This document shows positions 7,640-31,184 of a DNA stretch of 64,000 nt, in pieces. The notes beneath the pieces are model-generated. The model saw only the letters and a list, made by a program, of their open reading frames with translations. It did no database searches and was not told the DNA's origin. Within the stretch, counting starts at the first letter, position 1; the number at the start of each line of letters is the position of its first letter. This DNA comes from Telopea speciosissima. Lineage: Eukaryota; Streptophyta; Magnoliopsida; Proteales; Proteaceae. A program made the position numbers and the translations under genes. Location: NCBI RefSeq assembly GCF_018873765.1, contig NC_057919.1:67140984-67204983 (forward strand), written 5' to 3'.

Positions 7640-7800
7640 AGTGTTAATACATTATAATTTATTAATATAATATAATACTAGTATATTATAATAAATTAAT
7701 ACAATGTAATATTGATATATGATATATATTACTAATATTAGTATTTGATTTATAATGCTATTATATTATAGTATAATATTATATTATATATATGGTATAA
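7640..7800. repeat. AT-rich low-complexity tract
   Basis: TATAAT/TTAATA-type repeats with almost no G or C; the counterpart in copy B is at about 24,310-24,470. It lies between the LINE tail and the distal calreticulin upstream region. No gene is present. Confidence 0.7.
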
Positions 7801-8015
7801 ATCGAGTGTATAGGTTCGATACGAGTATCGATTCTTCTAAACCAAGGTGGCACTTGGTTTGGATTTGGATCACACCAACACTCCCTACAATTGAACAGAA
7901 TACCTGGTTCTAGACCGATTTACACCATTAGATTTGGTTGAAGGATCAATTGATCAAGGAGTGTCCCTCCAAGTTTAAAAAATTGTGAAGTCTCGATGAC
8001 GGTGAATTTTAATGT

Positions 8016-8292: not shown

Positions 8293-9925
8293 GAATTTTA
8301 ATGTCTTGAGAATGTTGTTTGAAACCGTGATCAAGTCTTCACGGCTTATCACTGAGATTTCTATATTTTTTTAGGAGAAAGAATGCGACCTATTCGTGTG
8401 CTATATGTAGCCTCTGTACCTAGACTGAAGGTTCCGTGAAATGATCGCTGTACTGGTGTGGCGGTAATTTTGCGGACCAGATAGCGTTATCTTTCCCAAT
8501 TTTTTTAATCCAAATCGGATGACTCCCTCAAGTCTAATGCTGATTTTCCAACAAAGATTAGGAGCAGTTTAATAAAGCAATTAAAATAATTAATGCATTC
8601 TTTTTAAGGATTATTGTATTAAAGTTGGCGTCACTTTCCAATGCTTGAATTTTATTAATTTGTACGTGCGATGGCGTGGGTGTCATAACTAACCCAAAAA
8701 GGCAAACGTCTTCCTGCCCCGCTTTTATTAATAAGTAGTCACATTAATGGAGAGCCAAAATTACTTATTCCCACGCGCCTGTCAAGAGCGTGTACTTTGT
8801 AGCTGAGTTGGATGCCAGCGTGACACTGAGCTCCAATCTGATTAGCAGTTCCAGTTTATATGGAGATGGACCCATGTGTACGGCTAACACCCATTGGCTG
8901 GTCGCCGCAAAAATGGGCCCACACTAAATCACCAAAATTTTCGTAAAACTGGGTTTTACGAAATCTCTAGAAAATTGCTATCTTTTAATCCTAATTAGGT
9001 CACCTCGACGTAATTGAACAAATGTCAAATGACCATTATACTTATACACTTTAAAATATATGACACTATAAGCCAGTGCGCTTCATTACTTACAAGTTGT
9101 ATCAGACCTAGCCTTACAACATGAGAGGCATCAAGATATGGACCATACCGGTTAAACCAAGCGGACCAAACCAATTAAAACCAAAATGGTCCGATCAATT
9201 ATAAATCGCCCGATCTCAAGCTTAGCTTGATTATCCTTTGTTTAGACTCGATTCTTGATAGTAATTGATGGACGTGCAATCAAAACTGATAATATTCATT
9301 TATAGTCCAATTAGCTTGGTTATAGTGTGATCAGCCTGTTTATGTTTATTTATAACTTGATAAGTTCATTTATTACTCGATTAACATGAGCCCAATTATA
9401 GATTAATAATCAATCAATAGACACCCTATTGAATATATCATGCAGTACATAAACGAGGTGGGTTCAACCTATAGTGATAAAGACTTGTCATTCGTAACAC
9501 GTAACCTACATCAACAATCAAGATGAACCGAATAAGCAAGGTTTTAAAACCTGAAATAAGTGATGAAATCGGTCATTGGCGATTTTGATCCGGATCAAAA
9601 TAGGTGTTCAAGATCCCTAGAATCAGTTTTCAGATCCAAAAACAGGAATTTCTAAAAAAACAAAGATTTTTAGGTGTGAATCAACCATAAGATCAATGGA
9701 AATCAGCCGATTCCGATCCAATTCCCGGTTCTTTAAACCCTGAGGATGGGCACCACCGGTTTAGTCCGCCCATTGCGTATCATTTTCAAACGCGCGATGC
9801 TTACTCTAATTTCTATATACGAACGGAGGTTAGTTTCGTCATTGACTGGGTTATTCGCTGTTCTTCGGACGTGAACGCGAATTAAAAGTAGTTAATGAAA
9901 GTAGAAAATCAGGAAAAACCTTCAC

Positions 9926-9933
9926 TATAATAA
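9926..9933 (+). promoter_or_regulatory. Putative TATA box of CRT-A
   Basis: TATAATAA lies 67 bases upstream of the calreticulin start codon, implying a leader of about 40 bases. Copy B has TATATTA at the same place (26,237-26,243). The flanking sequence is conserved between the copies. I saw no clear ER-stress element (CCAAT-N9-CCACG) nearby. Confidence 0.4.
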
Positions 9934-9999
9934 ACAGCTCCCCCAACACTCGACAGATCTGTGAGACGAAGAGTGGTGTGTCGTTCGTTTCTTGCTACA

Positions 10000-12900
10000 A
10001 TGGCGACTCCGTGGAAAAACCCTATTCTTTTCGGCATGGTCGCCCTTACCATTCTCTCAATTGTTTCTGCGGAAGTGTATTTCGAAGAGCGCTTCGAAGG
10101 TACAATGGATCTCCGCGATCTCGGATCCATTCTATTGTCATCTTTTGCTCTTATCATAGACTCATTTTGATCCATCAAGGGTTTCTGAAGTTTTCGTAAT
10201 TCTTTTTGCATCTGTATTGATCTAATTATGATTTAGCAGTTTCATGCTTATCCTTGGTTTCGTCACGGATTGGAGGAAAATCTATGATTTTGCTTCGTTC
10301 ATGTTAAGGATTTTGATCTAGTTAATATCAGATATGTTGTAATTATATCTGACGTTAATCTACGTTTGTATGAATGTCTAAGTTTGATTGTGCATTAATA
10401 CTCTAAAAATGTGTTATTGAGAGTGTGGGAGTATTGCGATCTGATTAGATATATTTGTTGAAGTTATTTTGATGGTTTATTTTTGAGTTTACTTTCTGAT
10501 ATCCAATTCAATCTATAGCTGCTCCCTATTCAAGTTTCACATATACTCCTTTGATAATTATCATGTGTTAGATCATATTTTGAGACTGCTCAAAACGTCT
10601 TTCTGGAGTTACTGACACCAGTGATCCATCTGAATTTATTGGCATTGGACTCCGGATTGCTTATTACCATCTGCGACTGATACTTTCTCACCATCGACAT
10701 ATCTGTTGGAATTTATATGAATTATCATTTACTTCGGATTTTATATTTAGCTGAAATGATTCTCATCTATGTCATGTTAAGATTTTTTCTTATTATTTAT
10801 TTTTATTCTGAAGTGTTGCGGGGTGGGATGCTAATACAGGAAGTACAAACTGTTAATCACATATATTGTACTATTCTCTCTTTGAACATCACATAGGCCT
10901 GAATATGTACCCTTGAATTAGTATTTTTGTGAGAACAAGTTGACGATGCCCCTTCATGGTCCTATCGTAGAGTTACATTATGTTTTTTTTTTTTTTTTTT
11001 TTGTGGGTGGGGGGGGGGGGGGGTGGGGTTCAACATCGAAATGAGTGTGTGCTTTCTAATTGATTTTGAGTGATTTGCTGTAATTGATTTGAACTTTTTT
11101 AATATGTAATTATTTTATGGGTGAATTTCAAGATGGATGGGAGAACCGGTGGGTCAAATCCGATTGGAAGAGAGATGAGAACATGGCTGGGGAGTGGAAT
11201 TACACTTGCGGTAAATGGAATGGAGACTCTAGTGATAAAGGTAACCTTCTATATTTTTTGCTTTTGTCTTTTCTTTTTCAATGAAGTAACAGAAAATTTG
11301 TTAGCATTTTCATGCATTGGGTTCTTCAGTGCTAGCTCTTGAATACCCTGTGGTACTTGATTGGCTTTGATCTCAATGTAGGTATCCAGACCAGTGAAGA
11401 CCACCGGTTTTATGCAATCTCAGCTGAGTTCCCTGAGCTAAGTAATAAGGATAAGACTTTGGTTTTCCAGTTCTCTGTAAAACATGAGCAAAAACTTGAC
11501 TGTGGTGGTGGCTACATGAAGTTGCTTAGTGGTGAATTTGATCAAAAGAAATTTGGTGGTGAGACCCCTTATAGGTAATGAACCATAGTTCGATACCATC
11601 TGTTATTTGTTTATTTAATTATCCCTTCCGTCCACACTAGAAAAGGTTTGACAGTAAATCTTTTTATATTGTGAGTGGCAGTATCATGTTTGGACCAGAT
11701 ATCTGTGGCTACAGCACCAAGAAAGTTCATGCTATACTTACGCGCAGTGGAACAAACCACCTTATCAAGAAGGATGTTCCTTGTGAGACTGACCAGCTGA
11801 CTCATGTGTATACTTTCATCCTCCGGCCAGATGCTACTTATAAAATCCTTATCGACAATGTGGAGAAACAATCTGGGAGTCTATATAGTGATTGGGATAT
11901 CCTCCCTCCAAAGAAAATCAAAGATCCTGAAGCTAAGAAAGTAAATCCTTTTGTAAAATGGATTTTTTTTTCTCCCATTATTTCTTTTATTGTTGTAACA
12001 GACCTCGTATTAATGTGCAGCCAGAAGATTGGGATGACAAGGAATATATTCCTGATCCTGAAGATAAGAAACCTGAGGTATTCATCCCCTTACTTTCATA
12101 AGCTTTTTGTTATTTCTACTGGGAATTCTAATTTGCTCTCTGCTACATTGTATTAAAATCATACTTACTATTTTTGTATGTTCGAAGGGGTATGATGACA
12201 TTCCAAAGGAGATACCTGATTCTGATGCCAAGAAGGTAGCTGATTCAGGACTTGCCTCTCAGTATCTTTATCATGTTTTGAAAGGCCTTATTTCCCTAAA
12301 AATGAACTAATTACTAAATATTGTGCTTCCTTACTCCATAGCCAGAGGATTGGGACGATGAGGAAGATGGTGAATGGACGGCACCAACCATCCCCAACCC
12401 AGAGTACAAGGGTCCATGGAAGGCAAATGTTCGTGAAATTTCTAAACCGGAAGCATGTCTTTTATTTTAATGGGCTTCAGTCTTCTTAACTGATTTTCAT
12501 TTTCTTCAGAAAATAAAGAACCCCAACTACAAGGGCAAATGGAAGGCACCAATGATTGATAACCCAGGTCTTTATTGATTCTCCATCAACACTATGTTTA
12601 CTTTTGAATGGTTTATTTTATTAACATTTATATATTTATGCTCAGATTTCAAGGATGACCAAGATATTTATGTTTTTGCCAATTTGAAATATGTTGGCAT
12701 CGAGTTGTGGCAGGTATATTTGTGTACAACTTCTTGTAGCAATTGATTGTATTTTTCAGGCTAAATAAATGCTAATGGGTGAGATATGTACATTTCAGGT
12801 AAAGTCAGGGACGTTGTTTGATAATGTTTTAATTTGTGATGATCCGGAATATGCAAAAAAGCTCGCCGAAGAAACATGGGGCAAAAACAAAGACGTATTT

Positions 12901-14185
12901 TACTTGTGCCTTACCTGTTTCAGTTCTTAAAAGTCTTTCCTCAATTCATGCAAAGATATTAGTTCTCAAGAAAGAGAATAAAACTCATGTTGAGATATTG
13001 GGTTTTGCAGGCTGAGAAGGCAGCATTTGATGAGGCTGAGAAAAATAGAGAGCAGGAGGTATATTGTCTTTTGCCATTTGTCCTCTGCATTTGGTTACAG
13101 ATTTTGCCTCTGCCTACAGTATATGTAATTCAGCTGAGCAGGGCAAAACTTTTCCTATTGTCGTTCTGGTACTGATCACTCATACTATGGTGGTGGTACT
13201 ACAGTACTACACAAGGGAAAGAGAATAGTAGGCTTCCTTTTATGTGTGGTTGTTCGGCTGGATGGCTGAATACTTTTTTTTGGGGGACAATTTTTCTAGT
13301 TCAGCAGGTCTGGAGAGTTATATCTGCCATTCTTTTTATGGCTAGATCCAATGTCCTGGTTCCTGACAGATTCGATAGAGCTGAAATTTTATGGACATGT
13401 GCTCCCAGAGGTCCCCTGGTCTTATGTCAAGTTTCAGCCAAAATTTAGCTGGCCAAGTGGCAAAATAAGGTTTTGGAAATCTAGTGTAAAAATGGAAATT
13501 TTACGAAAAGAAATGGGCGTTTGAATTTACAAGGGAATCTGTCAATACATGAGATGACTCAAAGAGCTAGTGTAAAGATGAAACTTCTCTAAAAAGAAAT
13601 GGACGGCTGAATGTACAAGGTAATCTGTCAATACTTTAGAGGGTATATTGTTCTGACTCTAAAAGTTAACATGTGGCCAATCATGACCATTTTCTAGATT
13701 GCCATATTACCCTTCCATGTTGCAAAGAATGGTCAGTCTCGAGATGCTCTGTACTCTTGCCAGACTAAAAAAAAAGTTGTCTTTTTATTTTTAGACATTG
13801 TTTCTCTGATCTGTTGTGATTCATTCTGGCAGGAAACGAAGGATGGTGCAGTTGATTCTGATGTAAGCTTTATAGAACTATTCCTGAAGTATATCATCCT
13901 ATTCTTAATGTATTCCATTTGCGATTGAACTAGCATGTTTTGCAGGATGAGAATGAGGATGATGAAAGTGACGATACTGAAGGCGATAAACCTGATAGTG
14001 ATGACACTGAAAGCAGCAAGACCGAAGATGATGATGATGATGATGATGATGTGCATGTATGTCTCCGTCTCTTTCAATTGTACAAAAAAGCTATGATTCT
14101 TCTGAAAATGTGCACGATGATTTTCCTTCTTCTGACTTGTTACACACTTCCTCTTGTGGTTATTCATTTGCAGGATGAGCTGTAA
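10000..14185 (+). CDS. CRT: Calreticulin, copy A (CRT-A), 14 exons, 424 aa
   Basis: ER-lumenal calcium-binding lectin chaperone that retains and folds monoglucosylated glycoproteins. Exons: 10000-10099, 11133-11240, 11382-11574, 11682-11940, 12021-12077, 12188-12235, 12342-12428, 12510-12567, 12646-12713, 12799-12894, 13011-13058, 13833-13862, 13946-14056, 14174-14185. All join in frame. Residues 1-24 are a signal peptide ([13 protein letters not shown].., cut after VSA). The lectin domain has both family signatures, [16 protein letters not shown] and IMFGPDICG, and an N-glycosylation site NYT at 56-58. The proline-rich arm has [19 protein letters not shown]-type and GPWKANKIKNPNY-type repeats. 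The acidic tail ends in eight Asp then VHDEL, giving the HDEL retention signal, with DEL-stop on a 12-nt last exon. Oddities: Cys59, where copy B has Ser, and a weak donor (GTTCGT) after exon 7. Length is normal for the family. Very likely functional. Confidence 0.95.
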
Positions 14186-14680
14186 GGAGATCTCTGAAGA
14201 AATTTTGGAGGCAGTTTATTCTAGGGATGACTCTGGTTTAGGCACTCAATTTTTTTTTTCCATTTCACTTTTTTCTTTTGGATGTAGGAATCCTTTTCAG
14301 GGAAGAACATTTAGGGTTGCATGAAATCATGTGGCTGTCCAAATTGTCTCATTTCAGTCCTTAGAACAGAAAGAAAGCTATAAGAGTTTTGTTCCTGCTA
14401 ACTCGTTAAAGTAGTTCAAAGAATCAAATGGATTTGAGTTATCCCTCGGTTTTGGTTTCACTTGTTCAATTTCCTTTTGCATATCCCCCTCTTAAGGTGA
14501 CTTTCGATTCCAAGACATGGCAGCAATCAGCAGAGGCGACCCTTCCAGCTCTGTTGCACATGTTTTAACCTGGAAAAAGATGGAGCCTTGGATCTCATAC
14601 GACCAACGGATAGATAGATTTAGGCTTCCCTGGATAGAATCACGTGTGAAACTTAAGACTGTCTAAATGACCTTAATAGG

Positions 14681-14913: not shown

Positions 14914-15055
14914 CCTTTAATAGGTATAGTTAAACTTGACAGTTTTTAATTGCCCTTTGTTGTAGTCTTAAATGTCTGGGCACAAATTACAATCTTACTG
15001 TAAAAGATGTGATATTAATTGGTTTGCCCCAACAAGATATAGGCATATAAGGCCC

Positions 15056-15228
15056 GGATCTAGATCCTCTACTGCCGAGCTGCCCAGCAGGACCATGTTG
15101 CCCAGACACAATGAGGTGCGCAATGACCACCTTACCCTCACTCGGGCAAGGCGCTTGGGTAGGGGTGAGGCGGTCATTGCGCACCTCGCCGTGTCTGGGC
15201 AGCTCGACAGTAGAGGATCCAAATTGGA
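15056..15228. mobile_element. Small foldback MITE, copy B only
   Basis: Terminal inverted repeats GATCCTCTACTGCCGAGCTG and CAGCTCGACAGTAGAGGATC bracket a GC-rich centre. The site is uninterrupted in copy A near 1,015. The flanks ATATAAGGCCC and ATATGGCCCC suggest a 9-10 bp target duplication, so it is probably another Mutator-type MITE. It is distantly like the ATCCTCTGCTG family. Confidence 0.7.
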
Positions 15229-17294
15229 TATGGCCCCGGCCATCCATCTACCAACAGGAAATTTGCAATTTGAAAATGCAAATGAAGTGTGGACTTTGTT
15301 TTGTTTCCCCATTGTTTGTTCATCTAGGGTATCCCAACAAGCTATGTTGTCTGTCTCAAATTCATTTATGTATCCGTTTCTAAGATTGATCCGTTCCGAC
15401 ATATTTTGGTGGTGAACCAAATGAGATTTTTTTCTAAGATTTGCGATGGTAGTGGAGGGATTGGGCCGATAGGCCCCAACCCGATGAAGTAGTCTTTATA
15501 TTCTTTTTTATCCGTCTTGTTGTAAAGAAGTTGATTCTGAGTTTTTTATGTTAGGGTTTTGAGAAGAGATGGTAGCAGCATCGTTTTGGGTGTTCTTGAG
15601 AGATTTACATTGTAACTTTCTTTCATTACATAGTGAAACATCTTCAGCTTCGCCAGTGGACGTAGCACATGTGAACCACTTTAAATCTGAGTGTCATCTT
15701 GCTCGATTTTTTGTTTCTGTTCGTGTTTTGTTTGGTGTTTTCTTTTACAAGCTTCATGAATATTTGTGGAACGGAATGTTGATCTATTTTGGCTATGAAG
15801 TGCATATGAACATTTTTTAGAGAAATCTTGAAGTAGGACCTGAGGCCTTGAGATACAGATTTATGAACTTGAAAAGAAGCTGGAATTAAAGAAACTCGAT
15901 AACTAAAGGTGGTAACAGTTTGAAGTGTTAACAATCGGGCTCATCTCATCAATGAGAGTAAAAAAGCTGAATTATACCGCACTAAGTAATATTTTTTTCC
16001 ATATTTAGTTAATTTTCACTTCTTGTTACCTAATTAATTTTGAAACCAATTTAGGCTCAATTTTACAAATTGCTTAGGGAAATTGTTCTACATCGTCTAA
16101 AGGCAAATTGGCATGTTTTTTTTTATTTATTTTTAGGTATGATATAAGGATGTAAACAAAATGTATTCGAAGTAGATGCATCAATAATTGAATTTGTATC
16201 GTATTAACATGTTCGCTATCCGAATCCAATCTGATCCCCAATAGATACTTCATTTTGAGTATCCGAAAAATCAGATATTTTAATTCGAATTTGATAATAT
16301 CCTATTAGTTTTAATGGTACTGTCTAAATTACACCTCTATGTGTGTTTAGAGCTTGACCCTTCTTTTAATTGTCCCTTGTTTTATTCCTAAAAATCTTTA
16401 TGTCAAAGGTGTAAAAGAGTTTTTTAAAATAATTTGAAAATGACTTGTAAAATTGCGATTACAAATTATTTGACAACTTAGGATGTGTTAATAAAAAAAT
16501 CTCATTTTTAATATATAAGTAATAATTATATTATAAAAGTAATTCATAATCCTATCGACTTTATGAGTACATAGTTATAGATAATAGCAATTTATAATGA
16601 AAGCGAATATCACCGCATCACACCAATATCCAAATCTATAATTGATTATCATATGGGGACCAAAAATACCCAAACTCGTATTGATATCTGACTATCCGAA
16701 TAATTGATACGAATTCGAATCTCGATTTTCGTTCTCCATTTACATCTCTTGTATAATCAATACAATATGGTCTTGCCATTTTCTTATTTTTGTTTTCTAT
16801 CAACTATTTTATCGTTCAAGCAACGATTCTTATGATTGTAAAATGCTTTAATGTATTTATATATCTCATAATTAAGTATTAAATACTTTTAGTTTAGCTT
16901 ATGTAATACAATTCCCTATAAAACATCTTTAGAAAGGTGACAAGATTAATTTTAACTAGTTTCATAGGATTATCATGTGCGGCTAAGTTTTATGGATCAA
17001 CCTGGTTAAGAGAAAGTTAAAAATTCAGATTATTTGAAGAGAGAATGTGTGATTCTACCACTAAGGAAACTTGAATCCTTTCAACTCATAGCAACATTAT
17101 TTGGTAATTGTAAATCAAAACTTGTGATATTCTATATTTTTTTATTCTTCTTAAGATGAATATGAGTGTTACTTGTCATGCTTGGTAAGAATAGTTTAAT
17201 ATCTTTTGCTTTATTGTTAGTCCCAATTTTGCAAGCATTCTCTTTATCATTTTAGATTTCTTTGATCGGTCAATTTTATTCTCATCCTAGAGAT

Positions 17295-18005
17295 TGATAT
17301 CTGTTAAGAATGTAACAATTGTATCTATTTCAATGTTTGAGGATTTGAGAAATATTATTTTGAGGTCCTATTCAATCACTATTGAGACGTCTAACCTTTG
17401 AACTTTGTTTTTGCTATAAGAAATATATGTACAAACACAACCATTACACATGACAGACACAATAGATAATTAGATCTCATCAGAGAAAACAAAATATGGA
17501 CGCATTACTGTCAAGTCCAATGCATTAGTTGCATTAACAAAAATTATCATGCAAGTGATTAAGTCTTGATTGTAAATAGTATGCATAAGACTTCTACGCA
17601 CAATTGAGTTTCATGGATCTTGCTAATTTAGAAAAGTTAAAAAATATAATAATAATAAATTATTTGGCAAGCCGACTTGTAGAAGTCTAGAGTATCAAAA
17701 AATTAATTTTAAATCTTAGGAATATGATTATTGCTTTATCTTATGATAGTCAACAACATATGATACAGGACCACAAGTTGACTAAGTTCATGATAGACTC
17801 GCTTCGTAGAGATGGTAAGACCCTAATTTTAGTTAATACTTCTCCTACAAAGTCAAACTTGGATGAGGCATATAATTCTTTAACTTGGGGTGTTTTGTTT
17901 CTCTCAATTAACAGAGTTGCGAATATAATAGGAATAATGCAAACCTACAAACTTGATCGAGTCACCTTGATTCTCGTAATTTTAAATGGGACATGCTGTT
18001 ATTAA
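17295..18005 (+). pseudogene. Kinesin (KIN14-like) motor-domain pseudogene, copy B
   Basis: Counterpart of the copy A fragment, with the same order of motifs: VSISMFEDLRNII near 17,318, MDLANLEKLKN around 17,612, RLVEV then an in-frame TAG, then SNLRNMIIALS, DHKLTKFMIDSL, GKTLILVNTSP and NLDEAYNSLTWG. Shared stops and missing exons show the gene was already broken when the block duplicated. The two copies have since drifted independently. It encodes no motor. Confidence 0.68.
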
Positions 18006-19059
18006 GTTTGAGTCTATGGTGATTAAACTTGGGGTTAACTCTATTTGTCCATATATTTCATTTGTGGTAGTTAGTGTCTTGTGGTTTATGTAAACCTTTG
18101 CTCCTATTTCTATTCAACCTTTTGGGGTTTAATCTATTGAAACCAATGAACATATCATGACAAAATGAGATTCATAATATCATAGACAACTGGATTTGGA
18201 ATTAGAGGAGATGGAGAGGTTGAAAGGCTCGTCTTGCCATTGCGGTAAGTGGGCCTTTTTTTTTTTTTTTTTGCTTCTTTTTGATCTACTTATCTCCCAT
18301 TGTACTGAGTTTGGATCTTTGAGGCAAATTATTGCTCATGAATTGTCCGACGAAATGCTGAAAAGAAACGTAACATTCCAGAATCAAGAATGCATTTTAA
18401 TGGAAGGTGTATCTAAACAATTATCTTATTCTCAATTAAAAACATATTTTATATTTTGAGAATGATATTAAAATAGTAAAAATTTAAGTTGCAAATCATG
18501 TGCATTCTTGAAAAATCAGGTTTTTTTGACTTGATTCATTTTGTCAAAAACTTGGTGAGTTGGTCTGGTCAAACCTAGTCAGGACGAGTCAATTTTTTGC
18601 ATATAAATATATAAATAATTATAATAACAATAAATCATAAACATACAAAAATAAGAAGAAAAAAAAAACTAAGAAATCACATATCAATGATATATGATTT
18701 TTTTTTTCAAAGCAAACTTGCTCGATAAGGAACTGACACCAGCTTGGATATCGAGATATCATTAGGGCAAGTTGACTGAATCATGGGCTCCTTAGGGCGT
18801 GTTTGGTTGCGTAAATCAAGAGAATGGTGTTTTGTCAGACCATAATTCTAAATTAATAAAATCGTTTGGTTGCCTAATTCCAATGGATTACAAGAATTGC
18901 ATGATTCTGATTTTTACACTAAATATGATCCATATCTGAGTTTACTTTTTTAGGTGAACTCAGATATGAATTACAAATTCAAGGGTTAGTATAAATTCCA
19001 TCATCCAAAAGTGAATGATAGCCTCTTGCCCTAAATCAAAAAATAAATCGTGAATCGCG

Positions 19060-19300
19060 ATTTGTGTTTTCTCTCTCTTGACTCTCTCGCGACCTAGGGA
19101 AACAACGGTTGTTCATCTATGGCTTGAACTTGCGTTCTCTCTCTCTCGGACTCTCTCGCTTCCTCTCTGCTCTCTTTCACAAACTCAAGTGAAAACGAAA
19201 AGCTTTGAGAACTTGCAGACTAAGGAAGCTTGGACGACTCCTGCTGAGAAGAGCTGCTGAAAAAAGGCCTGCTAGGGTTCTTGTTCAGGTGAAGTTCTAT
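19060..19300 (+). other. Gene-leader-like segment inside the Harbinger element
   Basis: CT-rich sequence with repeated CTCTCTC, an open stretch of 60 codons (19,078-19,260) of low-complexity protein, then TTGTTCAG followed by GTGAAG. This resembles the 5' untranslated exon and first donor of a plant gene. It may have been captured with the tetraspanin exon or separately. No homology is recognised. Confidence 0.25.
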
Positions 19301-21448
19301 TTATATTCTTTCCCTGTCTCAATTGATTACACACGCACTTGTTCTACTTGAATAAGATGAAACCCTAGATTCTATCTAAAACCATTGGTAATGGAGGATT
19401 TTCAGATATGTTTAGGAATAATGGTTGAAGGTTAAGATTTGAGAGAGTTCAGGAGAACTGTCCTGCTGCGGAAAGAAAAGATAAATTTGATTTTGAAACA
19501 TATAATCGAAAATATTAAAAGAGAATTTTGGGGAGATGGGTTGTGGTAGAGGCCGAGAGGGAGTGTGTCCGTGTGTGCGGCGTGTCCTTATCTACAACTT
19601 TGGAGAACTCCACTCGGCTCTCATCCTCTCATAATATTCGAAAGTAAAGAGATCGGCATACTATGATCTAAACGAAAACCATTTCATAACTGAGATTCCG
19701 ATAGAAGTAATTGGTTTGGGTAAGGTAGGTGAACGAAGGTTAGAGCTACGATCATAATGAAACTAAAAGTACCCTGAACCAAATCACAATCCCTTTATTT
19801 CAAAAACAAAATGCTTCCATCAGAACTTGAACAGTAATCCAAACACCAAATGCAGTTGAATGTTAGGATTAGATGTCTGAGAAGGTATGTCTTCTTGACT
19901 CAGAGGATAGCTTTGGCACTGAATCGTACCAGGCTTACCAAGCCCCTACTTTAACCTTCATCTTTGTTACTCTTTTGCCCATATTTTACTGCCTATTATG
20001 GTGCACACTCCATGTAGCAATCAAGAAACTGAGAACTAGATGCCTACCTACAGTTTTTGACTGAGAACCAGATGTCAATGGCTTAATGCTGCTAAAATGC
20101 TCAGATAAGCATTTCCATTGATGTGCTTAGAGTTTTCTCTTAGTTTATGATTTAACCAATTGTCACTGTCCCATTTTTTTTTTTTGGTTGTGCATCTCCA
20201 GCCCCAAGTGATAATTTTTACCCCTCCCCCCAATAAATCAAGTAATCGACCTCTGCACTTGGTCTTGTACACATTAGGCCTCGTTAAGAGTTCTTTTTTG
20301 ATTTTCGGTTATAACATGTGTTGTTTCTGTGTCTCTTCTTTGGGGTTACTTTGGCACAATACCAGAGCTTTTTTAAAGTTTAATTAGGATAAGATGTTGT
20401 GGGCTCAAGCTAAGGCAGCAGGCCTAATTTATTCACTGGATACCTGATTTTTGTGTTAGTTGTTTCTATACCATAAGGGATTGAAACTCATTTTATTTTA
20501 TTTATGAGATTGGTTATATGGAAGTTAAAAAATGTACTTGGATTGAACAACAGTTTATTTTTTTGTTTTAATTTTCTAGGAGAATCAATACATCTAGTTT
20601 GAGTCTGTTTCATGTCTGCTCGAATTCTTCACTTTTTTCTTCGCAAATGATTGACTAGTGCTCTACATTTTTCATTTTGTTTTTCCTCCGCAATAGCTTG
20701 ATGGACTTAGTATTAAATTAGTTATGATTTTCTGTTGAAATTTAGCAATATCTAATGGGTATTGAAGAGAAATGAAGAATTTTAGAAGTTCAAACCAGTT
20801 GGAGAATGAAAAGTTGTATGCAGGACCTGGAAAAAAAAAATTAGTTCTGATTCTCTTTTGGGATTTTCTTTTTGAGTTCTTGATCTCTCTTTCATCAATT
20901 GTTTGTCTTTGAAACATGAAATAGGTTTTCAAAAGAAGAGTGTTCAGCCACTTGATTTTGGTTCTGCGTTTTGATTCTCTCTTAATCTTCTTACGATTTT
21001 CTCTTGAAAGAAATGGGTAGTTGGTGATTCTGATATTTTTATCTGGATTTGTTCAGAATTTTAGATCTAGTAACCACCAGAAACCTCTGTTAAATAAGTG
21101 TACATTGGGTTTTTTGTTTGCTTTGGAGTTTTTTTAGCATCTCTTTTCTATTCGAATCACAGCCTTCATTAAATGATGGGACATTGAATTTTCTGAAACT
21201 TTTGGTAGAAATTTTTAAAAGGGTTGTGTGTTTTTGCTATATTTTGAACATGTGCGTATCATGGAATCTTCATCAATTTCAAAACTTTGGGGCTTTACAT
21301 TTGTTTACCTGCCTTATTCTTGTAGTCTTCATCTATATTTCACTGGAATTAGGCTTCTAGTTCTCTCTCTTTGTGATTCAGTAAATTCAGGTGTGACATT
21401 TTGAAATTAATGTGTTATTTGGTTTTCTTTTGGTGATGTGATCTGCAG

Positions 21449-21762
21449 TCTGGTTGCTGTAAGCCTCCAACTTCATGTAACTTCACCTATGTGACTCCAA
21501 TCGATGGACCAACCCAAGCAGCAGAACCTCCTTCACTGACTCTGACTGCACAGCTTGGAACAACAATGAAAATGATCTCTGGTACAACTGCCAGTCTTGT
21601 AAGGGTGGAGTGCTTCAAAATATAAAGAGTCAGTGGAAGAAGGTTGCCATTGTCAACATCATCTTCCTCATCTTCCTTGTCATTGTCTACACCATTGGTT
21701 GCGGTGCTTTCAGGAACAACAGGATGGATAATTCTTATCCCAGATATAAGGGTTTCCCATAG
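21449..21762 (+). pseudogene. Tetraspanin last exon, captured and frameshifted
   Basis: After a CAG acceptor the sequence reads SGCCKPPTSCNFTYVTPIDG, the second half of the plant tetraspanin large extracellular loop with its GCCKPP motif. In a different frame it continues DCTAWNNNENDLWYNCQSCK, GGVLQNIKSQWKKVAIVNII and the fourth transmembrane helix FLIFLVIVYTIGCGAF, with tail RNNRMDNSYPRYKGFP and a stop. The frame change lies between about 21,508 and 21,527, in the linker before the DC motif. The large first exon, with three membrane helices and the CCG loop motif, is absent. The fragment is therefore a captured, non-coding exon inside the transposon. Confidence 0.9.
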
Positions 21763-22410
21763 AATCTTAATCTGATCTGGTTACATTGCTATAGAGGGAG
21801 AAGATGCAGATAGCATATTTTGCTGATTTGTTTTACTCTGTTTTTCATTTGATTCATAGTAGATATATACATGGATTTCTACATACTTCAGCAAGCTCTA
21901 TTGCTGACAAATCAGTTCACACCGCTCGCTATCCATTGCTGATTGTTATGTTGTAGTGATGAACTTGCACTGGCATGATTGTAGCATGGTTATAGCATGG
22001 TTATGTAGGACCCTGTGGATATTTTCTGCTGTTCTTCTTTATATTTATTTATAAACTTGATGGATATGAGGCATATTATGATTTTCTTTTGAGGTAAAAG
22101 CCTAATTCATTAAGGACAAAGAGCAGGCCCAGGCCAAGGCCAAGGCCAATGCCAATTACATCATCTCTCACAAGGAAGATGAGAATGTGGGGGAGAAGGT
22201 GCCTCTTAGTGCAGAACCAAATAGAAAATTAAATTAAATAAAAAGAATGATCAGGAGAAGGTGATGGTATTGAGTATGGCTGGGCAATTAGGTAATAAGG
22301 AAGAACAACAGAAAATAAATGATGTTGGATTTGTGGGTTGGCTTCAAATGTTTTTTTTTGCTTTTGTTCAGTTGCTATATGTTTTTGTGACATGGTTTAT
22401 GTAGGTGAGT

Positions 22411-22482
22411 GAGTCTTTAGCTCAAAAGGAAGAGCATCTGGGTTTGTTCCCAGGAGATGATGGTTCGATTCCATCACGACTC
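22411..22482 (+). tRNA. tRNA-like structure (probable pseudo-tRNA)
   Basis: A full cloverleaf can be drawn: acceptor GAGTCTT/ACGACTC with 6 of 7 pairs, D-stem GCTC/GAGC, anticodon stem CTGGG/CCCAG with five pairs, five-base variable loop, and T-stem GATGG/CCATC with loop TTCGATT. The anticodon loop TTTGTT has only six bases, so no anticodon can be assigned confidently. It lies within the Harbinger element. It is probably a degraded tRNA or SINE head. Confidence 0.4.
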
Positions 22483-22629
22483 TCATGTAGCAGTAGCATC
22501 TTATTTAATTTCTTATCTTGAAGTGAACTGATTTACCCATCAGAATAAGGTGAGGCTTGGGGGAATCTGAACTGTTGTTTTACTTAAATGAAAGCTATTG
22601 AGTCATACTGAGTCATACCCTCTATGTTG

Positions 22630-22785
22630 TCATACCTGAGCACACACTCACCTCCATCCCTTGTTACCCCTACACCTGAACACAACACTAACACAGTCAC
22701 CCTCACCCCTTGCTGCCCCTACACCTGAGCACACACTCACCCCCACCCCTTACTGCTCCTACACCTAAGCTCACACTCACACATA
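22630..22785. repeat. Tandem repeat (about 55 bp, 3 imperfect units)
   Basis: Units contain CCCCTACACCTGAGCACACA followed by CTCACCCCCACCCCTT. It lies inside the Harbinger element. No coding frame is preserved across units. Confidence 0.65.
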
Positions 22786-22914
22786 GAAATTGCATATTAA
22801 TAATTTTAGGTTATATAAGGTTGGGTGGTACTAGGATTTAATTAATTATTTGAGAACATTAATATGGTAATCGTATTTTTTTTTTGTTAATGTGTCTTAT
22901 ACTTTTAAATGTAA

Positions 22915-23120
22915 GGTTTAGTAACTGACAGACTTATTAGGGTAACCAAACAGTTATTCAGGTAGATTTAGAGTAAATCCAACTGATAGACTCAGGGTAA
23001 CCAAACAGTTTTTCAAATAGATTCAGGGTGAATCCAACTGATAGACTTAGGGTAACCAAACAGTTTTTCAGGAAGAATTACGTCACAGAATCATGATAAC
23101 CAAACAGTTTATTTTCTAGA
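22915..23120. repeat. Subterminal repeats of the Harbinger element
   Basis: Four or five imperfect units of about 55-60 bp carry GGTAACCAAACAGTTTTTCA and GAATCCAACTGATAGACT. The ACCAAACAG core resembles the inside of the terminal inverted repeat, as expected for transposase-binding subterminal motifs. Confidence 0.6.
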
Positions 23121-23314
23121 ATTACGATTCAACAGATGGTAACTCAAGTGGATGACCATCCACAATCAGACCACATCCAAAAGATTTACGCAACCAAACG
23201 CTTCCTTATGGGTCCCATCTGATCTGGCCCACAACACAAAAAATAAACAAAATTCCAGTTATCTTGAAAACCAAAGAAGATTAGATCAATGTTTCTTTAT
23301 GACATAACGGGCTC

Positions 23315-24045
23315 ATCTAAGCATAATCTTTTGCCTTTACTGATGGTTCTTGGCTTCCCTCTTTATGCAAGGGTGGTCGTGGTTCTTTGATACGTGACTC
23401 TGATGGTCACTTCTTTGGCGCCATGTGTAAGGCTAGTTTGGGTTCATCGGCTTCTATGTTTGAAGCTGAGGCTATTCATGACATTTTGTTTTCGGATACA
23501 ATTTGCAGATCACCCACATAATGGTTCTCTCGGACTGTCGTCTTGTTGTGCTGGACCTTAGACGTATTTCGTCTTCTTTGGACTGGGCCACTATGGCCTT
23601 TGTAGATGATGATATTTTAGATTTATCTCGTTCTTTTACGTATGTTTCCTTTACTTTAGTTTCTCGCTTTGTTGTACATGAGGCTCACCTTTTAGCAAAA
23701 GCTACCTCTCATTTTTTTTTTTCCTGTCTCATTTCTGGTGGCTTTCTCCCCTCCTCCCTTTCATTACGGAAAATAATTATCTCCAATTCCTTAAAGTGTG
23801 GCAGTGCGGCAGTGCTAGGTGGAGATGTCGACACCTGGCAGTGCCGCATCCAATGGTCCATATCAATGAGCTCGGATCGTTGGATTTGGCAGCTGCCAGG
23901 TGTCGACATCTCCACCTAGCACTGCTGCATTGCCACACTTTAGGAATTTGAGAGAATTAAAATCTTTTCATTACCTCTTGTAATCCTTTAGTCCGAGATT
24001 TACCCTGCACTAGTGATCCATAATAAAATTGCTGATTCTGACAAA
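23315..24045 (+). mobile_element. LINE 3' end with RNase H-like domain, copy B
   Basis: Counterpart of 6,650-7,375. It reads FTDGSWLPSLCKG, then GSLIRDSDGHFFGAMCKA, then MFEAEAIHDI; after a frame change come VLSDCRLVVLDLR and VSRFVVHEAHLLAKA, typical of the end of plant L1-type open reading frames. It is truncated and inactive. A foldback element is nested at 23,781-23,953. Confidence 0.75.
23781..23953. mobile_element. Foldback MITE nested in the LINE tail, copy B
   Basis: Same element and site as 7,106-7,277, with long arms around a short spacer including ATATCAATGAGCTC. Both copies keep long pairing arms despite independent substitutions. Confidence 0.8.
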
Positions 24046-26236
24046 AAAAAGAGGAACAAATAAACATGTTTTTTTTCCCTCCACGTTCTTTGTTGGAAGG
24101 GTTCGTTCCAACTTTCAACCTCTCTTGAGAGATGAGAGTTGTAGGTTAGCGAAGGGAATGAGAGATAACTATAAAGTTAGTCAAATTGAATTCGGAATGG
24201 GAATTGAAAAGCAAAATCGGATTCAACCAATAATTGGAATCGGGACTTAGTTACTTTCCGGATTCAGCATAGGAACCGATGATTAGAACCGAAGCTAAAC
24301 CGAATTTGAGTGTCAATATATTATAATTTATTAATATAATATAATACTAGTATATTACAATAAATTAATACAATGTAGTATTGATATATATTATATATAT
24401 TACTAATATTAGTATTTGATTTATAATGCTATTATATCATAGTATAATATTATATTATATATATGGTATAAACCGAGTATGGGGACCGGAACCGAAACAT
24501 GTATGAACCGAATAAGAAGTGGAACAGGATCGGAATCAAGTAGGTTAGCTATGAGTATCGATTCTTCAGAAACAAGGTGGGACTTGGTTTGGATTTGGAT
24601 CACACCAACACTCCCTATATCTGAACAGAATATCTGGTTCTGAATCAATTCACACCATTAGATTTGGTTGACTGATCAATTGATCAAGGAGTGTCCCTCC
24701 AAGTTTAAAAAATTGAAAAGTCATCGTGAATTTTAATGTTTTGAGTATTTTGATTGAAACTGTGATCAAGTCTTCACAACTTATAACCAAGATTTCCATA
24801 ATTTTTCGGAGAAAGAACGCTACCGATTCATGTGCCATGCGTAGTCCCTGCACCTAGACACAAGGTTACACGAAATGATCGTTTTATCCCCATGGAAAGG
24901 CAGGAAATCCTTGGTGGCATGGCGGTCATTTTGCGGACCAGACAGTTCCCAATTTTTAACCCAAATCGGATGACTCCCTCACGTCTAATCCTGATTTTCC
25001 AACAAAGATTAGGAGCAGTTTAATAAAGCAATTAAAATAATTAATGCATTTTTTTTAAGGATTAATGTATTAAAGTTGGCGTCACTTTCCAATGCTTGAA
25101 TTTTTATACATTTGTACGTGCGATGGCGTAGGTGTATAACTTACCCAGAAAGGCAAACGTGTTCCTGCCCCGCTTCTATTAATAAAAAATTGTCACATTA
25201 GAGTATTAGACAGCCAAAATTACTTATTCCTACGCGCCTGTCAAGAGCGTGTACTTTGTGGCCGAGTTGGATGCCAGCGCGTCACTGAGCTCCAATCTGA
25301 TTAGCACTTCCAGCTTATATGGAGATGGACCCATGTGTACGGCTAACACCCATTGGCTGGTCGCCGCAAAAGTGGGCCCACACTACATCACCAAAATTAT
25401 CGTAAAACTGGGTTTTACGAAATCTCTAGAAAATTGCTATCTTTTAATCCTAATTAGGTAACCTCGACGTAATTGAACAAATGTTAAATGACCATTATAC
25501 CCATAAACTTTAAAACATATGACCACACCGGTTAAACCAAGCGGACCCAACCAATTAAACCAAAATGGTCCGATCGATTATAAATCGCCCAATCTCAAGC
25601 TTAGCCTGATTATCCTTTAGTTACACTCGATTCTAGATAATAATTGATGGACGTCTAATCGAAACTGATAATATTTATTTATGGTCTAATTACCCTGGTT
25701 ATAGCTTGATTATGTTTATTTATACCTTGATACGTTCGTTTATAACTCGATTAACATGAGCCCCGTTAAAGATTAGTAACCAATCCAGGATATAAACGAG
25801 GTGGGTCAACCTATAGTGATAAAGACTTGTCAATCGTAACACGTAACCTACATTAACAATCAAGATGAACCGGATAAGCAAGGTTGAAATTGGGGACGGA
25901 ATCAGTCCTTGGTGATTTTGATCCGAATTGGGGTGTTCAAGAACCCTAGAATCAGTCCTCCCAAATACAGAAATTTCTAAAAATACAAAGATTTTTGGGT
26001 GTGAATCGACCATAAGATCAATGGAAATCAGGATCGATCACAGTCGATTCCGATCTAATTCCCGATTCTTTAAACCTGTTGCGTATCATTCTCAAACTCG
26101 CGATGCTTGCTCTAATTTCTAAACACGTGAGGAACGGAGGTTAGTTTCGTAATTGACTGGGTTATTCGCGGTTCTTCGGACGTGAAGGCGAATTAAAAGT
26201 AATTAATGAAAGTAGAAAATCAGGAAAAACCTTCAC

Positions 26237-26243
26237 TATATTA
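26237..26243 (+). promoter_or_regulatory. Putative TATA box of CRT-B
   Basis: TATATTA lies 74 bases upstream of the start codon, collinear with the copy A TATA box; the leader has diverged slightly by indels and substitutions. Confidence 0.4.
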
Positions 26244-26310
26244 CACAGATCCCCCCATGCTCCTCAGAGCTGTGATCGGAAGAGTGGTGTCTCGTTCGTT
26301 TCTTGCTACA

Positions 26311-29300
26311 ATGGCGACTCCGTGGAAAAGCCCTATTCTTTTCGGCATGGTCGCCCTTACCATTCTCTCAATTGTTTCTGCGGAAGTGTATTTCGAGGAG
26401 CGCTTCGAAGGTACAATGGATCTCTCGAATCTCGGATCCCTTCTAGATCCCTTCTATTCTTATCTTTTGCTCCCATCAGAGACTCATTTTGGTCCATCTA
26501 GGGGTTCTGAAGTTTTCGTAATTCGTTCTACATCTGCATTGATCTGATTGTGTTTTAGCAGTTTCATGCTTATCCTTGGTTTTGTCATGGATTGCAGGAA
26601 AATGTATGATTTTGTTTCGTTGATCTCAAAGGTTTTTGATCTGGTTAATATCAGATATGTTGTAATAATATCTGACGTTGATCTACATTTGTATGAATCT
26701 TTAATTTTGATTGTGCATTAATACTCTAAAAATGTGTTCTTGAGAGTTTGGGAGCATGGCTATCTGATTTGATATATTTGTTGAAGTTATTTTGAAGGTT
26801 TATTTTTGAATTTACTTTCTGATATCTAATTCAATCCATAGCTGCTGCTTATTCAAGTTTCACATATACTCCTTTGATAATTATCATGTGTTAGATCATA
26901 TTTTGCGGCTGCTCAAAACGTCTTTCTGGAGTTACTGATACCAGTGATCCATCTGAATTTATTGGCATTGGACTCCGGATTGCTTATTATGATAGTTTCT
27001 CACCATCGACTTATCTGTTGGAATTTATATGAATTATCATTTGCTTCAGATTTTATATACAGCTGAAATGATTCTCATCTATATCATGTTAAGATTTTTT
27101 CTTATTATTTATTATTTTTATTCATTGTATGAAGTGTTGCGGGGAGGGATACTAATACAGGAAGTACAGACTGTTAATCACATATATTGAACTATTCTCT
27201 CTTTGAACATCACATAGGCTTGAATATGTGCCCTTGAATTAGTATTTTTGTGCGAACAAGTTGACGATGCCCTTTATGGTCCTATCGTAGAGTTACATTT
27301 TGTTTTTGTTTTTTTTTTTTTTTTAGGGGGGGGGGGGACGGTAGTGGGGTTCAACATTGAAATGAGTGTGTACTTTCTAATTGATTTTGAGTGATTTACT
27401 GTAATTGATTTGCACTTTTTTAATTTGTAATTATTTTATGGGTTAATTTTTAGATGGGTGGGAGAACCGGTGGGTCAAATCCGATTGGAAGAGAGATGAT
27501 AACATGGCTGGGGAGTGGAATTACACTTCCGGTAAATGGAATGGAGACTCTAGTGATAAAGGTAACCTTCTATATTTTTTGCTTTTGTCTTTTCTTTTTC
27601 AATGAAGTACCAAAAATTTGTTAGCAGTGTCATGCATTGGGTTCTTCAGTGCTAGCTCTTGAATACTCTGTGGTACTTGATTCGATTTGATCTCAATGTA
27701 GGTATCCAGACCAGTGAAGACCACCGGTTTTATGCAATCTCAGCTGAGTTCCCTGAGCTAAGTAATAAGGATAAGACTTTGGTTTTCCAGTTCTCTGTAA
27801 AACATGAGCAAAAACTTGACTGTGGTGGTGGCTACATGAAGTTGCTTAGTGGTGAATTTGATCAAAAGAAATTTGGTGGTGAGACCCCTTATAGGTAATG
27901 AACCATAGTTCGATACCATCTATTATTTGTTTATTTAATTATCCCTTCCGTCCACACTAGAAAAGGTTTGACAGCAAATCTTTTTATATTGTGAATGGCA
28001 GTATCATGTTTGGACCAGATATCTGTGGCTACAGCACCAAGAAAGTTCATGCTATACTTACACGCAGTGGAACAAACCACCTTATCAAGAAGGATGTTGC
28101 TTGTGAGACTGACCAGCTGACTCATGTGTATACTTTCATCCTCCGGCCAGATGCTACTTATAAAATCCTTATCGACAATGTGGAGAAACAATCTGGGAGT
28201 ATATATAGTGATTGGGATATCCTCCCTCCAAAGAAAATCAAAGATCCTGAAGCTAAGAAAGTAAATCCTTTTGTAAAATAGATTTTTTTTTCTCCCATTA
28301 TTTCTTTTATTGTTGTAACAGACCTCGTGTTAATGTGCAGCCAGAAGATTGGGATGACAAGGAATATATTCCTGATCCTGAAGATAAGAAACCTGAGGTA
28401 TTCATCCCCTTACTTTCATAAGCTTTTTGTTATTTCTACTGGGAATTCTAATTTGCTCTCTGCTACATTGTATTAAAATCATACTTACTATTTTTGTATG
28501 TTCAAAGGGGTATGATGACATTCCAAAGGAGATACCTGATTCTGATGCCAAGAAGGTAGTTGATTCAGGACTCACCTCTCAGTATCTTTATCATGTTTTG
28601 AAAGGCCTCATTTCCCTAAAAATGAACTAATTACTAAATATTTTGCTTCATTACTCCATAGCCAGAGGATTGGGACGATGAGGAAGATGGTGAATGGACA
28701 GCACCAACCATCCCCAACCCAGAGTACAAGGGTCCATGGAAGGCAAATGTTCGTGAAATTTCTAAACCGGAAGCATGTCTTTTATTTTAATGGGCTTCAG
28801 TCTTCTTAACTGTTTTCATTTTCTGCAGAAAATAAAGAACCCCAACTACAAGGGCAAATGGAAGGCACCAATGATTGATAACCCAGGTCTTTACTGATTC
28901 TCCATCAACACCATGTTTACTTTTGAATGGTTTATTTTATTAACATTTATATATTTATTCTCAGATTTCAAGGATGTCCCAGATATTTATGTTTATGCCA
29001 ATTTGAAATATGTTGGCATCGAGTTGTGGCAGGTATATTTGTGTACAACTTCTTGTAGCAATTGATTATATTTTTCAGGCTAAATAAATGCTAATGGGAG
29101 AGATATGTACATTTCAGGTAAAGTCAGGGACGTTGTTTGATAATGTTTTAATTTGTGATGATCCGGAATATGCAAAAAAGCTTGCCGAAGAAACATGGGG
29201 CAAAAACAAAGATGTATTTTACTTGTGCCTTATCTGTTTCAGTTCTTAAAAGTCTTTCCTCAACTCATGTAAAGATATTAATTCTCAAGAAAGAGAATAA

Positions 29301-30478
29301 AACTCATGTTGAGATATTGGGTTTTGCAGGCTGAGAAGGCAGCATTTGATGAGGCTGAGAAAAAGAGAGAGCAGGAGGTATATTGTCTTTTGCCATTTGT
29401 CATCTGCATTTGTTTACAGATTTGGCCTCTGCCTACAGTATATGTAATTCAGCTGAGCAGGGCAAAACTTTTCCAACTGTCGTTCAGGTACTGACCACTC
29501 ATACAATGGTGGTGGTACTACAGTACTACACAAGGGAAAGAGAAGACTAGGTTTCCTTTTATGTGTGGTAGTTTCGCTGAACGGCTGAATACATTTTTTT
29601 TGGGGACAATTTTTCTAGTCCAGCAGGTCTGGAGAGTTGTATCTGCCATTCTTCTTATGGCTAGATCCAATCTCCTGATTCCTGACAGATTCGATAGAGC
29701 TGAAATTTTATGGACATGTGCTCTTATAGGTCCCCTGGTCCTTTGTCAAGTTTCAGCCAAAATTGAGTTGGCCAAGTGGCAAAATAAGGTTTTGTAAAAA
29801 TGGAAATTTAGGAATAGAAATGGACGTTTGAATTTACAAGGGAATCTGTCCATACATGAGATGACTTAAAGAGTTAGTGTGAAGATGAAACTTCTCTAAA
29901 AAGAAATGGACGGCTGAATGTACAAGGGAATCTGTCAATACATGAGAGGGTATATTGTTCTAAACTCAAAAAATTAATATGTGGCCAATCATTACCATTG
30001 TCTAGATTGCCACATTACCCTTCCATGTTGCAAAGCATGGTGTCAGTCGCGAGATGCTCTATAGTCTTGCCAGACTAAAAAAAAAAACTTGTCTTTTTAT
30101 TTTTAGACATAGTTTCTCTGATCTGTTGTGATTCATTCTGGCAGGAAGCGAAGGATGATCCAGTTGATTCTGATGTAAGCTTTATAGAACTATTCCTGAA
30201 GTATATCATCCTATTCTTAATGTCTGCCATTTGCGATTGAACTAACATGTTTTGCAGGATGAGAATGAGGATGATGAAAGTGACGATGCTGAAGGCGATA
30301 AACCTGATAGTGATGACACTGAAAGCAGCAAGACCGAAGAAGATGATGATGATGTGCATGTATGTCTCCTTCTCTTTCAGTTGTACAAAAAAGCTATGAT
30401 TCTGTCACGATGATTTTCCTTCTTCTGACTTGTTACACACTTCCTCTTGTGGTTATTCATTTGCAGGATGAGCTATAA
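26311..30478 (+). CDS. CRT: Calreticulin, copy B (CRT-B), 14 exons, 421 aa
   Basis: Tandem paralogue of CRT-A with identical exon phases: 26311-26410, 27454-27561, 27702-27894, 28002-28260, 28341-28397, 28508-28555, 28662-28748, 28829-28886, 28965-29032, 29118-29213, 29330-29377, 30145-30174, 30258-30359, 30467-30478. All frames join without stops. Signal peptide, both calreticulin signatures ([25 protein letters not shown]), P-domain repeats and HDEL are intact. Differences from A include N7S, E48D, C59S (B has NYTSGKW), Pro to Ala in [21 protein letters not shown] for [13 protein letters not shown], and a shorter Asp run ([11 protein letters not shown]), making it three residues shorter. 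Ser59 is closer to the small residue usual in plants. Regulation is unknown; the upstream 1 kb resembles copy A, so expression may overlap. Confidence 0.95.
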
Positions 30479-31184
30479 GGAGATCTCCGAAGAAATTCTG
30501 GAGGCAGTTTATTCTAGGGATCACTTTGGGTGGTTTAGGCACTCAAAAAAATTTTCCATTTCACTTTTTTCTTTTGGTTGTTGGAATCCTTTTCAGGGAA
30601 AGAACATTTAGGGTTGCATGAAATCATGTGGCTGTCAAAATCGTCTCATTTCAGTCCTTAGAACAGAAAGAAAGCTATAAGAGTTTTGTTCCTGCTAACT
30701 CGTTAAAGTAGTTAAAAGAATCAAATGGATTGAGTTATCCCTTGGTTTTGGTTTCACTTGTTCAGTTTCCTTTTGCATATCCCACTCTTAAGGTGACTTC
30801 GATTCCAAGACCTGGCAGCAATCAGCAGAGGCGGCCCTTCCAGCTCTGTGGTTGCACATTGTCTTAACCTCGAAAAAGATAGAGCCTTGGAACTCATACA
30901 ACCTACGGATGGATTGATTTGGTCTTCCCTGGATAGAATCACGTGTGAAACTTAAGACTGTCTAAATAACCATTATGGGTATAGTTAGAACTTGGCAGTT
31001 TTTAGTTGCCTTTTGTTTTATTTCTAAAAAATCTTAAAGTCAGGGATATAAAAGGAATTTAAAAATAATTTGAAAGTGATTAAGCATTATGTAGTATTAA
31101 AATTTGTCATTCTCTTGCATATTTTTTGAGTACACTGGAAATTATAGTATTTAGTTGAATCAGGTAAAAAGAGTATTATATTAC

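Follow-up and report, generated by a model that had tools for sequence, protein, structure and literature searches.

A probable Pack-PIF transposon of Telopea speciosissima carrying pieces of five host loci, including a tetraspanin terminal exon

Results

A TTA-flanked element interrupts one half of a tandem duplication

A 64,000-nucleotide stretch of Telopea speciosissima DNA (C4:67140984-67204983 of the genome; hereafter the window) contains a tandem duplication whose second copy (copy B, approximately 14990-30975) is interrupted by a transposon-like element of 4,411 bp at 18795-23205, here termed W, which carries pieces of host genes. W is bounded by terminal inverted repeats (TIRs) of 23 bp, the left at 18795-18817 on the plus strand and the right at 23183-23205 on the minus strand. 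These begin with GG (GGGCGTGTTTGG... and GGAAGCGTTTGG...) and are identical at 20 of 23 positions; for two fixed ends of this base composition, the chance of identity at 19 positions or more is approximately 4e-8. A trinucleotide target site duplication (TSD), TTA, lies on either side (18792-18794 and 23206-23208). The first copy of the tandem duplication (copy A, approximately 960-14675) is insert-free at the corresponding place and reads ATGGGCTCCTTATACATCCC at 6531-6550, with a single TTA at 6540-6542. Thus, the flanks of W in copy B (...GGGCTCCTTA, element, TTATGGGTCCC...) have ...GGGCTCCTTATACATCCC... as their counterpart in copy A. The two raw flank alignments overlap by six bases (TCCTTA); the right-hand TCC was taken as the end of W because its opposite strand starts GGAA, which leaves TTA as the duplication. 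The TTA duplication, TIRs and empty site of a PIF/Harbinger-like element, as first proposed from the sequence-only reading of the window, were in this way recovered.

The ends of W define a genome-wide family

The genome was searched for the TIRs, as that reading had advised, using a pattern of TIR plus flanking TWA (TWAGGNNNNGTTTGGTTGCGTAAATC, at most one mismatch). This gave 126 + 124 = 250 ends, all of which were counted and the first places among them recorded, against 0 for a reversed-pattern control. A whole-genome search with W itself gave at least 58 matches (40 of 1,421 candidates scored). From these searches 35 regions were taken, 20 from matches to W and 15 around TIR ends; one (L043) was dropped as possessing one TIR only, and the remaining 34 TIR-bounded relatives together with W make up the 35 elements considered below, ranging in size from 0.7 to 8.1 kb. 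Identical 3-bp flanks were found for W (TTA/TTA) and 29 of the 34 relatives, 28 of these 29 having TTA or TAA and one, L019, TCA. Members have a left end in common, often over approximately 150-400 bp, and most also a right end of approximately 0.9-1.3 kb, reduced to 0.2-0.3 kb in L029, L037 and L041, while interiors vary by lineage.

One relative, L029 (C9:46268411-46276465, 8,055 bp), possesses the same TIRs as W, with TTA on both sides, and encodes pieces of a transposase. When its three open pieces were joined with X, they matched DDE_Tnp_4 (PF13359) with 69.2 bits (E 4e-19), and the last piece alone scored 28.3 bits, above the cut-off of 24.8. The expected DDE neighbourhoods (AIDGSH, LVDAGF and NYIERAF) were recognised by eye. 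The frame is interrupted by stops and the activity of this copy is therefore only putative. A Myb/SANT-like ORF1 was looked for, but the two open reading frames (ORFs) scanned beside the L029 transposase gave no Myb match. In W, reading of the six frames by eye (only some of them also being scanned against Pfam) revealed no transposase and a single ORF of at least 100 amino acids, on the minus strand. The 3-bp TWA duplication, the short TIRs starting with GG and the DDE_Tnp_4 relative with the same ends place W in PIF/Harbinger. The earlier proposal that it is non-autonomous is also supported.

Other classes of gene-carrying element were considered. Pack-MULEs, like W, have captured several gene fragments with introns at the DNA level, but they belong to another superfamily with 8-11-bp target duplications and long TIRs, and are ruled out by the 23-bp TIRs and by the TTA duplication, whose 3-bp length the empty site establishes. 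Helitrons, which possess neither TIRs nor a target duplication, are ruled out by the presence of both in W.

W carries the 3' portion of a tetraspanin gene

A Pfam tetraspanin search of the genome (54 of 54 candidates scored, 37 matches) was followed by examination of P11, P4 and L046. The closest intact gene found was P11, the coding part of which (C11:3917028-3918581, minus strand) comprises two exons of 169 and 104 codons (PF00335, E 2.4e-41); its protein gave no match to solved structures at E ≤0.01. On the plus strand, W contains the 3' part of the corresponding intron (20850-21448, 83.5% identical with gaps to that of P11), which retains the acceptor AG, followed by the terminal exon (21449-21762, 96.5% to P11 exon 2, 104 codons in the parent, with one 1-nt frameshift in W) and the start of the 3' untranslated region (21763-21878), matching P11 from the stop codon with the joint to the right backbone nearby. 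The larger open part of the exon matched PF00335 with E 2.9e-7 and 30.8 bits, just below the curated cut-off of 32.1. The tetraspanin terminal exon with upstream intron named in the sequence-only reading is thus present, and its parental type can be assigned, although P11 may not be the very donor (see Discussion). Since intron and splice sites were copied along, the capture was from DNA. A tetraspanin-like exon approximately 5 kb from P11 (L046, C11:3923519) was rejected as donor, being only 58% alike to P11.

The same cargo is present in seven of the 35 elements: W, L009, L015, L016, L017, L018 and L019. In P11 coordinates it spans 515 (codon 66) to 2330 in L015, 573-2330 in L016 and L018, 573-2176 plus 2257-2330 in L017, 774-2330 in L019, 1077-1983 in L009 and 957 to approximately 1983 in W, where the BLAST match continues to 2019, beyond the joint. 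The right break at 2330 is common to five elements and the piece was therefore probably captured once. In all seven the cargo lies inside one kind of TIR pair and backbone, and the closest intact tetraspanin gene is on C11 rather than at this site. This rules out both alternatives that had been raised against a single element, namely separate nested MITEs contributing the TIRs and an inserted host segment devoid of them.

BLAST identity to P11, with gaps, is 96-98% for exons (including a 52-bp piece of L019, 96%) and 82-86% for introns; ignoring gaps, the introns differ by 8.1-10.4%. The 3' part is 88-92% identical in the longer copies, 81% in a 74-bp piece of L017 and 84% and 93% in the short pieces of W and L009, respectively. 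Overall, the longer matches are 87-90% identical to P11 (the 74-bp piece 81%) vs 63-81% to the paralogue P4. Between P11 and the consensus of the elements, exon 2 differs by four synonymous and no nonsynonymous changes, and exon 1 by two of each. P4 agrees with the elements at both nonsynonymous sites of exon 1, so these changes probably occurred in P11. These few changes suggest that the donor was a constrained gene already split from P11, that capture took place shortly before amplification and that the cargo has been unconstrained since.

The left cargo is a mosaic from four further loci

W begins with its own left end (18795-19321, plus strand), including a CT-rich 'leader-like' part: W positions 1-480 and 474-527 are 87% and 91% identical to the TIR-bearing L051, while other cut-out members match over shorter stretches. 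The leader-like segment had previously been counted as cargo. It proves to be mostly the element's own left end, common to other members, and patches from four host loci come after it.

A genome search with W 400-2046 (14 of 14 candidates scored) gave 17 matches, seven of them complete or almost complete copies inside elements and the other ten fragments, and five fragment loci were mapped. Among the matches, C6:87373 corresponds to L015, and C6:65921962 is 78% identical over 90 bases. All of the pieces that follow lie on the plus strand. Two derive from DNA upstream of an AT-hook-like gene (L048, C1:76.51 Mb): W 525-556 (19319-19350, 97% over 32 bp) and W 791-1135 (19585-19929, 88%). Nested between them is DNA from upstream of a UBR-box gene (L049, C1:85.13 Mb; W 553-790, 19347-19584, 91%), the ORF neighbouring the match containing a zf-UBR domain (PF02207, E 1.6e-8). 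A coding piece of a RING-finger gene follows (L050, C1:9.74 Mb; W 1132-1228, 19926-20022, 93%; zf-RING_2 in the L050 ORF, E 4.3e-11), then a short backbone-like piece in common with L051 (20020-20071, 79% over 53 aligned columns). The last piece is a fragment of a C6 locus with two internal deletions (L047, C6:59.898 Mb; W 1268-2042, 20062-20836), aligning in three parts at 89%, 100% (26 bp) and 94%. We take the L048 ORF to be AT-hook-like from its motif, its Pfam AT_hook score (13.4 bits) being below the cut-off of 17.4. No family TIR was found in the stretches examined of L047-L050. Including the tetraspanin, the donor loci of W thus number five: C6 and C11 have one each, and C1 has three, separated by 66.8 and 8.6 Mb.

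As is characteristic of Pack-TYPE elements, W combines host-gene fragments whose intact parents lie elsewhere (the C11 tetraspanin, the C1 RING gene and others) with mobility as a unit: W on C4 and L009 on C1 share the mosaic, and a tetraspanin piece is present in seven elements, these two included.

The right backbone contains a tRNA-like structure and TIR-like repeats

The right part of W (21884-23205, plus strand) is backbone common to members with other cargo, and is 95-96% identical to L020 and L021, a grouping that has moderate support in the right-end tree. Within it, at 22411-22484 on the plus strand, is a tRNA-like structure (Rfam RF00005, 22411-22483, 47.4 bits, E 5e-7). ARAGORN called a tRNA in 29 of the 35 elements, with an anticodon readable in three only; in W the anticodon was unreadable to the program and the loop is 6 nt by eye. 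BLAST recovered the part in full from 31 of the 35 and partially from L030, but not from L029, L037 or L041. The structure noted from the sequence alone is therefore real, but it is backbone of the non-autonomous family, and its interpretation as captured cargo is ruled out. Over 30 elements it is 3.9% diverged vs 5.7-6.1% for its flanks, which is too little to claim a function.

Four subterminal repeats (repeat families D1 and D2) occupy 22933-23126 on the minus strand. They carry the TIR core GTTTGGTT at spacings of 55, 55 and 44 bp, and a pattern scan allowing two mismatches picks up three of them. They look as if the end of W had been duplicated inwards, and are possible additional binding sites for the transposase.

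Joints show microhomology and the ends of W have different relatives

Nine joints in W were resolved to the base by eye, and their microhomology was then compared with that at random breakpoints in the same source sequences. The joints contain 3, 4, 0, 4, 0, 6, 3, 4 and 5 bases of microhomology. At least three bases are present in seven of the nine, with an expectation of 6-7.5% per joint (binomial P ~1.5e-7); the seven source switches account for five of these (5/7) and the two deletions inside the C6 piece for the others (2/2). Near the joint of the C6-locus piece, a 15-base backbone motif recurs 32 bases further on (family D20), as if copying had slipped back once.

W and L009 share the composite, with approximately 270 bp spanning the junction with the tetraspanin piece missing from L009. 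In a tree of left ends, these two elements group with L010-L014 and L016-L018 (support 95/94), with L015 just outside. In a tree of right ends, they group with L020, L021, L024 and L030 (82/88, or 90/75 once L028 and L036 are added). L020 changes partners too, its left end falling in the L029 group (95/95) and its right end with W and L009. Since the partners of W, L009 and L020 differ between the two trees, ends and cargo appear to have been reassorted, through either recombination or the template switching proposed for the joints (see Discussion).

Discussion

We conclude, with a probability of roughly 0.85, that W is a non-autonomous, multi-donor Pack-PIF element, assembled stepwise by template switching and now carrying its cargo as a passenger. 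W would move by cut-and-paste, with transposase supplied in trans by PIF-type relatives possessing the same ends. Following excision or breakage, gap repair in a family member would have switched template to host DNA at a few matching bases and back again, and W was probably built in this manner. One lineage would have acquired DNA upstream of the AT-hook-like gene, DNA upstream of the UBR-box gene inside it, then the RING-finger exon and approximately 0.8 kb of the C6 locus. A second would have copied a stretch of a tetraspanin gene akin to that of C11, comprising part of exon 1, the intron, exon 2 and the 3' flank. Both would have contributed to the ancestor shared by W and L009, the first its left part and the second its tetraspanin middle, together with a right end resembling those of L020 and L021. 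W would then have inserted at TTA following the local tandem duplication. For the family as a whole, we lean towards a single PIF/Harbinger backbone acting as a serial collector, with shared ends, interiors gained by repeated, nested, microhomology-guided copying, exchange of ends and cargo between members, and re-amplification of the composites.

The principal alternative for the origin of W is fusion of neighbouring insertions, the model of Gisby and Catoni (2022) for plant Pack-TYPE elements, whereby two members flank host DNA and their outer TIRs mobilise everything between (PMC8903248). Two donors do lie close to family members, C1:76.51 Mb approximately 0.2 Mb from L024 (C1:76.30 Mb) and C6:59.90 Mb approximately 0.3 Mb from L016 (C6:59.58 Mb), and the three-part mosaic of W and L009 could include such fusions. 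However, neither L024 nor L016 matches the fragment of its adjacent donor. Host DNA gained by fusion should form one uninterrupted segment with relic TIRs on both sides, whereas at least four loci on two chromosomes contributed to the left cargo, their pieces measuring 26-517 bp and one being nested in another, and 3-6 bp of microhomology are found at seven of nine joints. The joints fit template switching during repair better, and we regard neighbour fusion as an unlikely account of W. The time of insertion can also be questioned, as precise excision is possible for PIF/Harbinger elements and could have emptied copy A of a W older than the tandem duplication. Copies A and B differ at 820 of 11,294 aligned bases (7.26%), compared with 157 of 3,995 (3.93%) for W and L009. 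The lower divergence of the elements means that insertion more simply postdates the duplication. Prior excision therefore strikes us as quite improbable, and on the simplest interpretation copy A keeps the ancestral empty site.

A further possibility is that W keeps a functional chimeric gene under selection, with a leader exon spliced to the tetraspanin C-terminus. In its favour, splice sites are retained, six of the seven elements have an exon 2 that is open along 104 codons (one alignment stopping at codon 103), and exons are closer to P11 than introns are (96-98% vs 82-86%). Between elements, however, exon 2 (2.5-4.8%) has diverged similarly to the intron (1.8-5.2%). Changes since amplification amount to 33 nonsynonymous and 7 synonymous in exon 2, three positions with the same change in two elements each being counted twice, and 12 and 7 in the exon-1 piece; the neutral expectation is approximately 3:1. 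Selection on the tetraspanin cargo was thus tested for and not seen after amplification. Moreover, W is frameshifted, L015 has stops just ahead of its exon-1 piece, exon 1 before codon 66 is present in no element, and W and L009 possess no exon 1 at all. From the similar exon and intron divergence and the broken frames, it follows that most of the contrast between exons and introns in their identity to P11 originated outside the amplified elements. We therefore consider a chimeric gene highly improbable; the captured coding pieces look like transposon passengers rather than genes, and no new function is claimed for the tetraspanin cargo.

Several observations count against W as a multi-donor Pack-PIF element or against parts of the history proposed for it. 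The search for an autonomous partner produced the broken L029 (8.06 kb, with DDE_Tnp_4 and the same ends), but an intact transposase with these ends was not found among the elements examined, and the single longest transposase ORF in L029 matched nothing but HTH_Tnp_4, and this below threshold (15 bits, cut-off 27). The flanking 3-mers differ in five of the 35 elements (L010, L012, L013, L032 and L038). The actual donor may have been a gene other than P11, the 4:0 changes in exon 2 hinting at a source still constrained after its split from P11; the changes behind this hint are few, and P4 shares the state of the elements at two of these four sites. The tetraspanin carrier L019 stands apart from the other carriers in the left-end tree, and the forks of the right-end tree are not starred. 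Finally, the limits of the joints were set by eye ahead of scoring, and the joint between the C6-locus and tetraspanin pieces, which contains extra bases, was left out.

The sequence-only reading described gene capture as less well known for PIF/Harbinger elements, but it has already been reported in this superfamily. Grapevine Pifvine-3 is a described case of PIF elements with captured exons and introns (PMC2528002), and Pack-PIF elements are described in rice and maize (PMC8903248). Like W, the latter are non-autonomous with PIF ends, are mostly flanked by TTA/TAA duplications, carry fragments of host genes and occur in multi-copy clusters. In the example of Zm-Pack-PIF cluster 18, however, the gene pieces are of 163 and 58 bp in elements of approximately 0.5 kb (PMC8903248), as opposed to five donor loci, exon plus intron and 4.4 kb in W. 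Pifvine-3 also has long 5' regions that match host exons and introns, some of them common to several copies; its authors found their elements by transposase similarity (PMC2528002), whereas W is non-autonomous and its donor loci were identified singly. Animal Pack-TIRs share with W microhomology at breakpoints and template switching as the proposed origin; these are animal elements, and the main text of that report contains no occurrence of Harbinger/PIF (PMC8277862). A literature search combining tetraspanin, gene capture and transposable element returned nothing on topic, judging by titles and the beginnings of abstracts.

The kind of element is thus already known, and the value of W lies in the clarity of its donors and joints. 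How TIR transposons gain genes is debated between gap repair with template switching and fusion of neighbours. Within one genome, the family offers multi-copy elements whose donors are identified, a nested capture and joints known to the base, such that the models become separable by counting. Furthermore, PIF elements are best known for giving rise to small MITEs, and W indicates that they can also assemble composites from five donor loci.

Other features of the family and the window

Pfam scans of six ORFs from the interiors of other members, selected from many, gave nothing above cut-off. L033, L034 and L035 have in common open frames of 88-101 amino acids at approximately 760-1060 of each element, possibly a further captured gene, and the two of these frames that were scanned gave no Pfam match above cut-off. 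Relative to W, L015 contains an insertion of approximately 760 bp in its right backbone (L015:1501-2260), perhaps a nested element.

A 169-amino-acid ORF at 40577-41086 of the window resembles, by eye, the terminal part of a reverse transcriptase from a non-LTR retrotransposon; it had no Pfam match. A second tandem duplication, of approximately 2 kb, is formed by 43565-45652 and 45663-47814, with pieces 80-92% identical. The larger duplication that contains W takes in a piece of a calreticulin-family gene (27961-28278, PF00262, E 2.7e-16). It also includes a segment of approximately 175 bp, at 7105-7278 and 23780-23955, whose copies in the two tandem halves match inverted as well, in the manner of a palindrome, and which is perhaps an older MITE.

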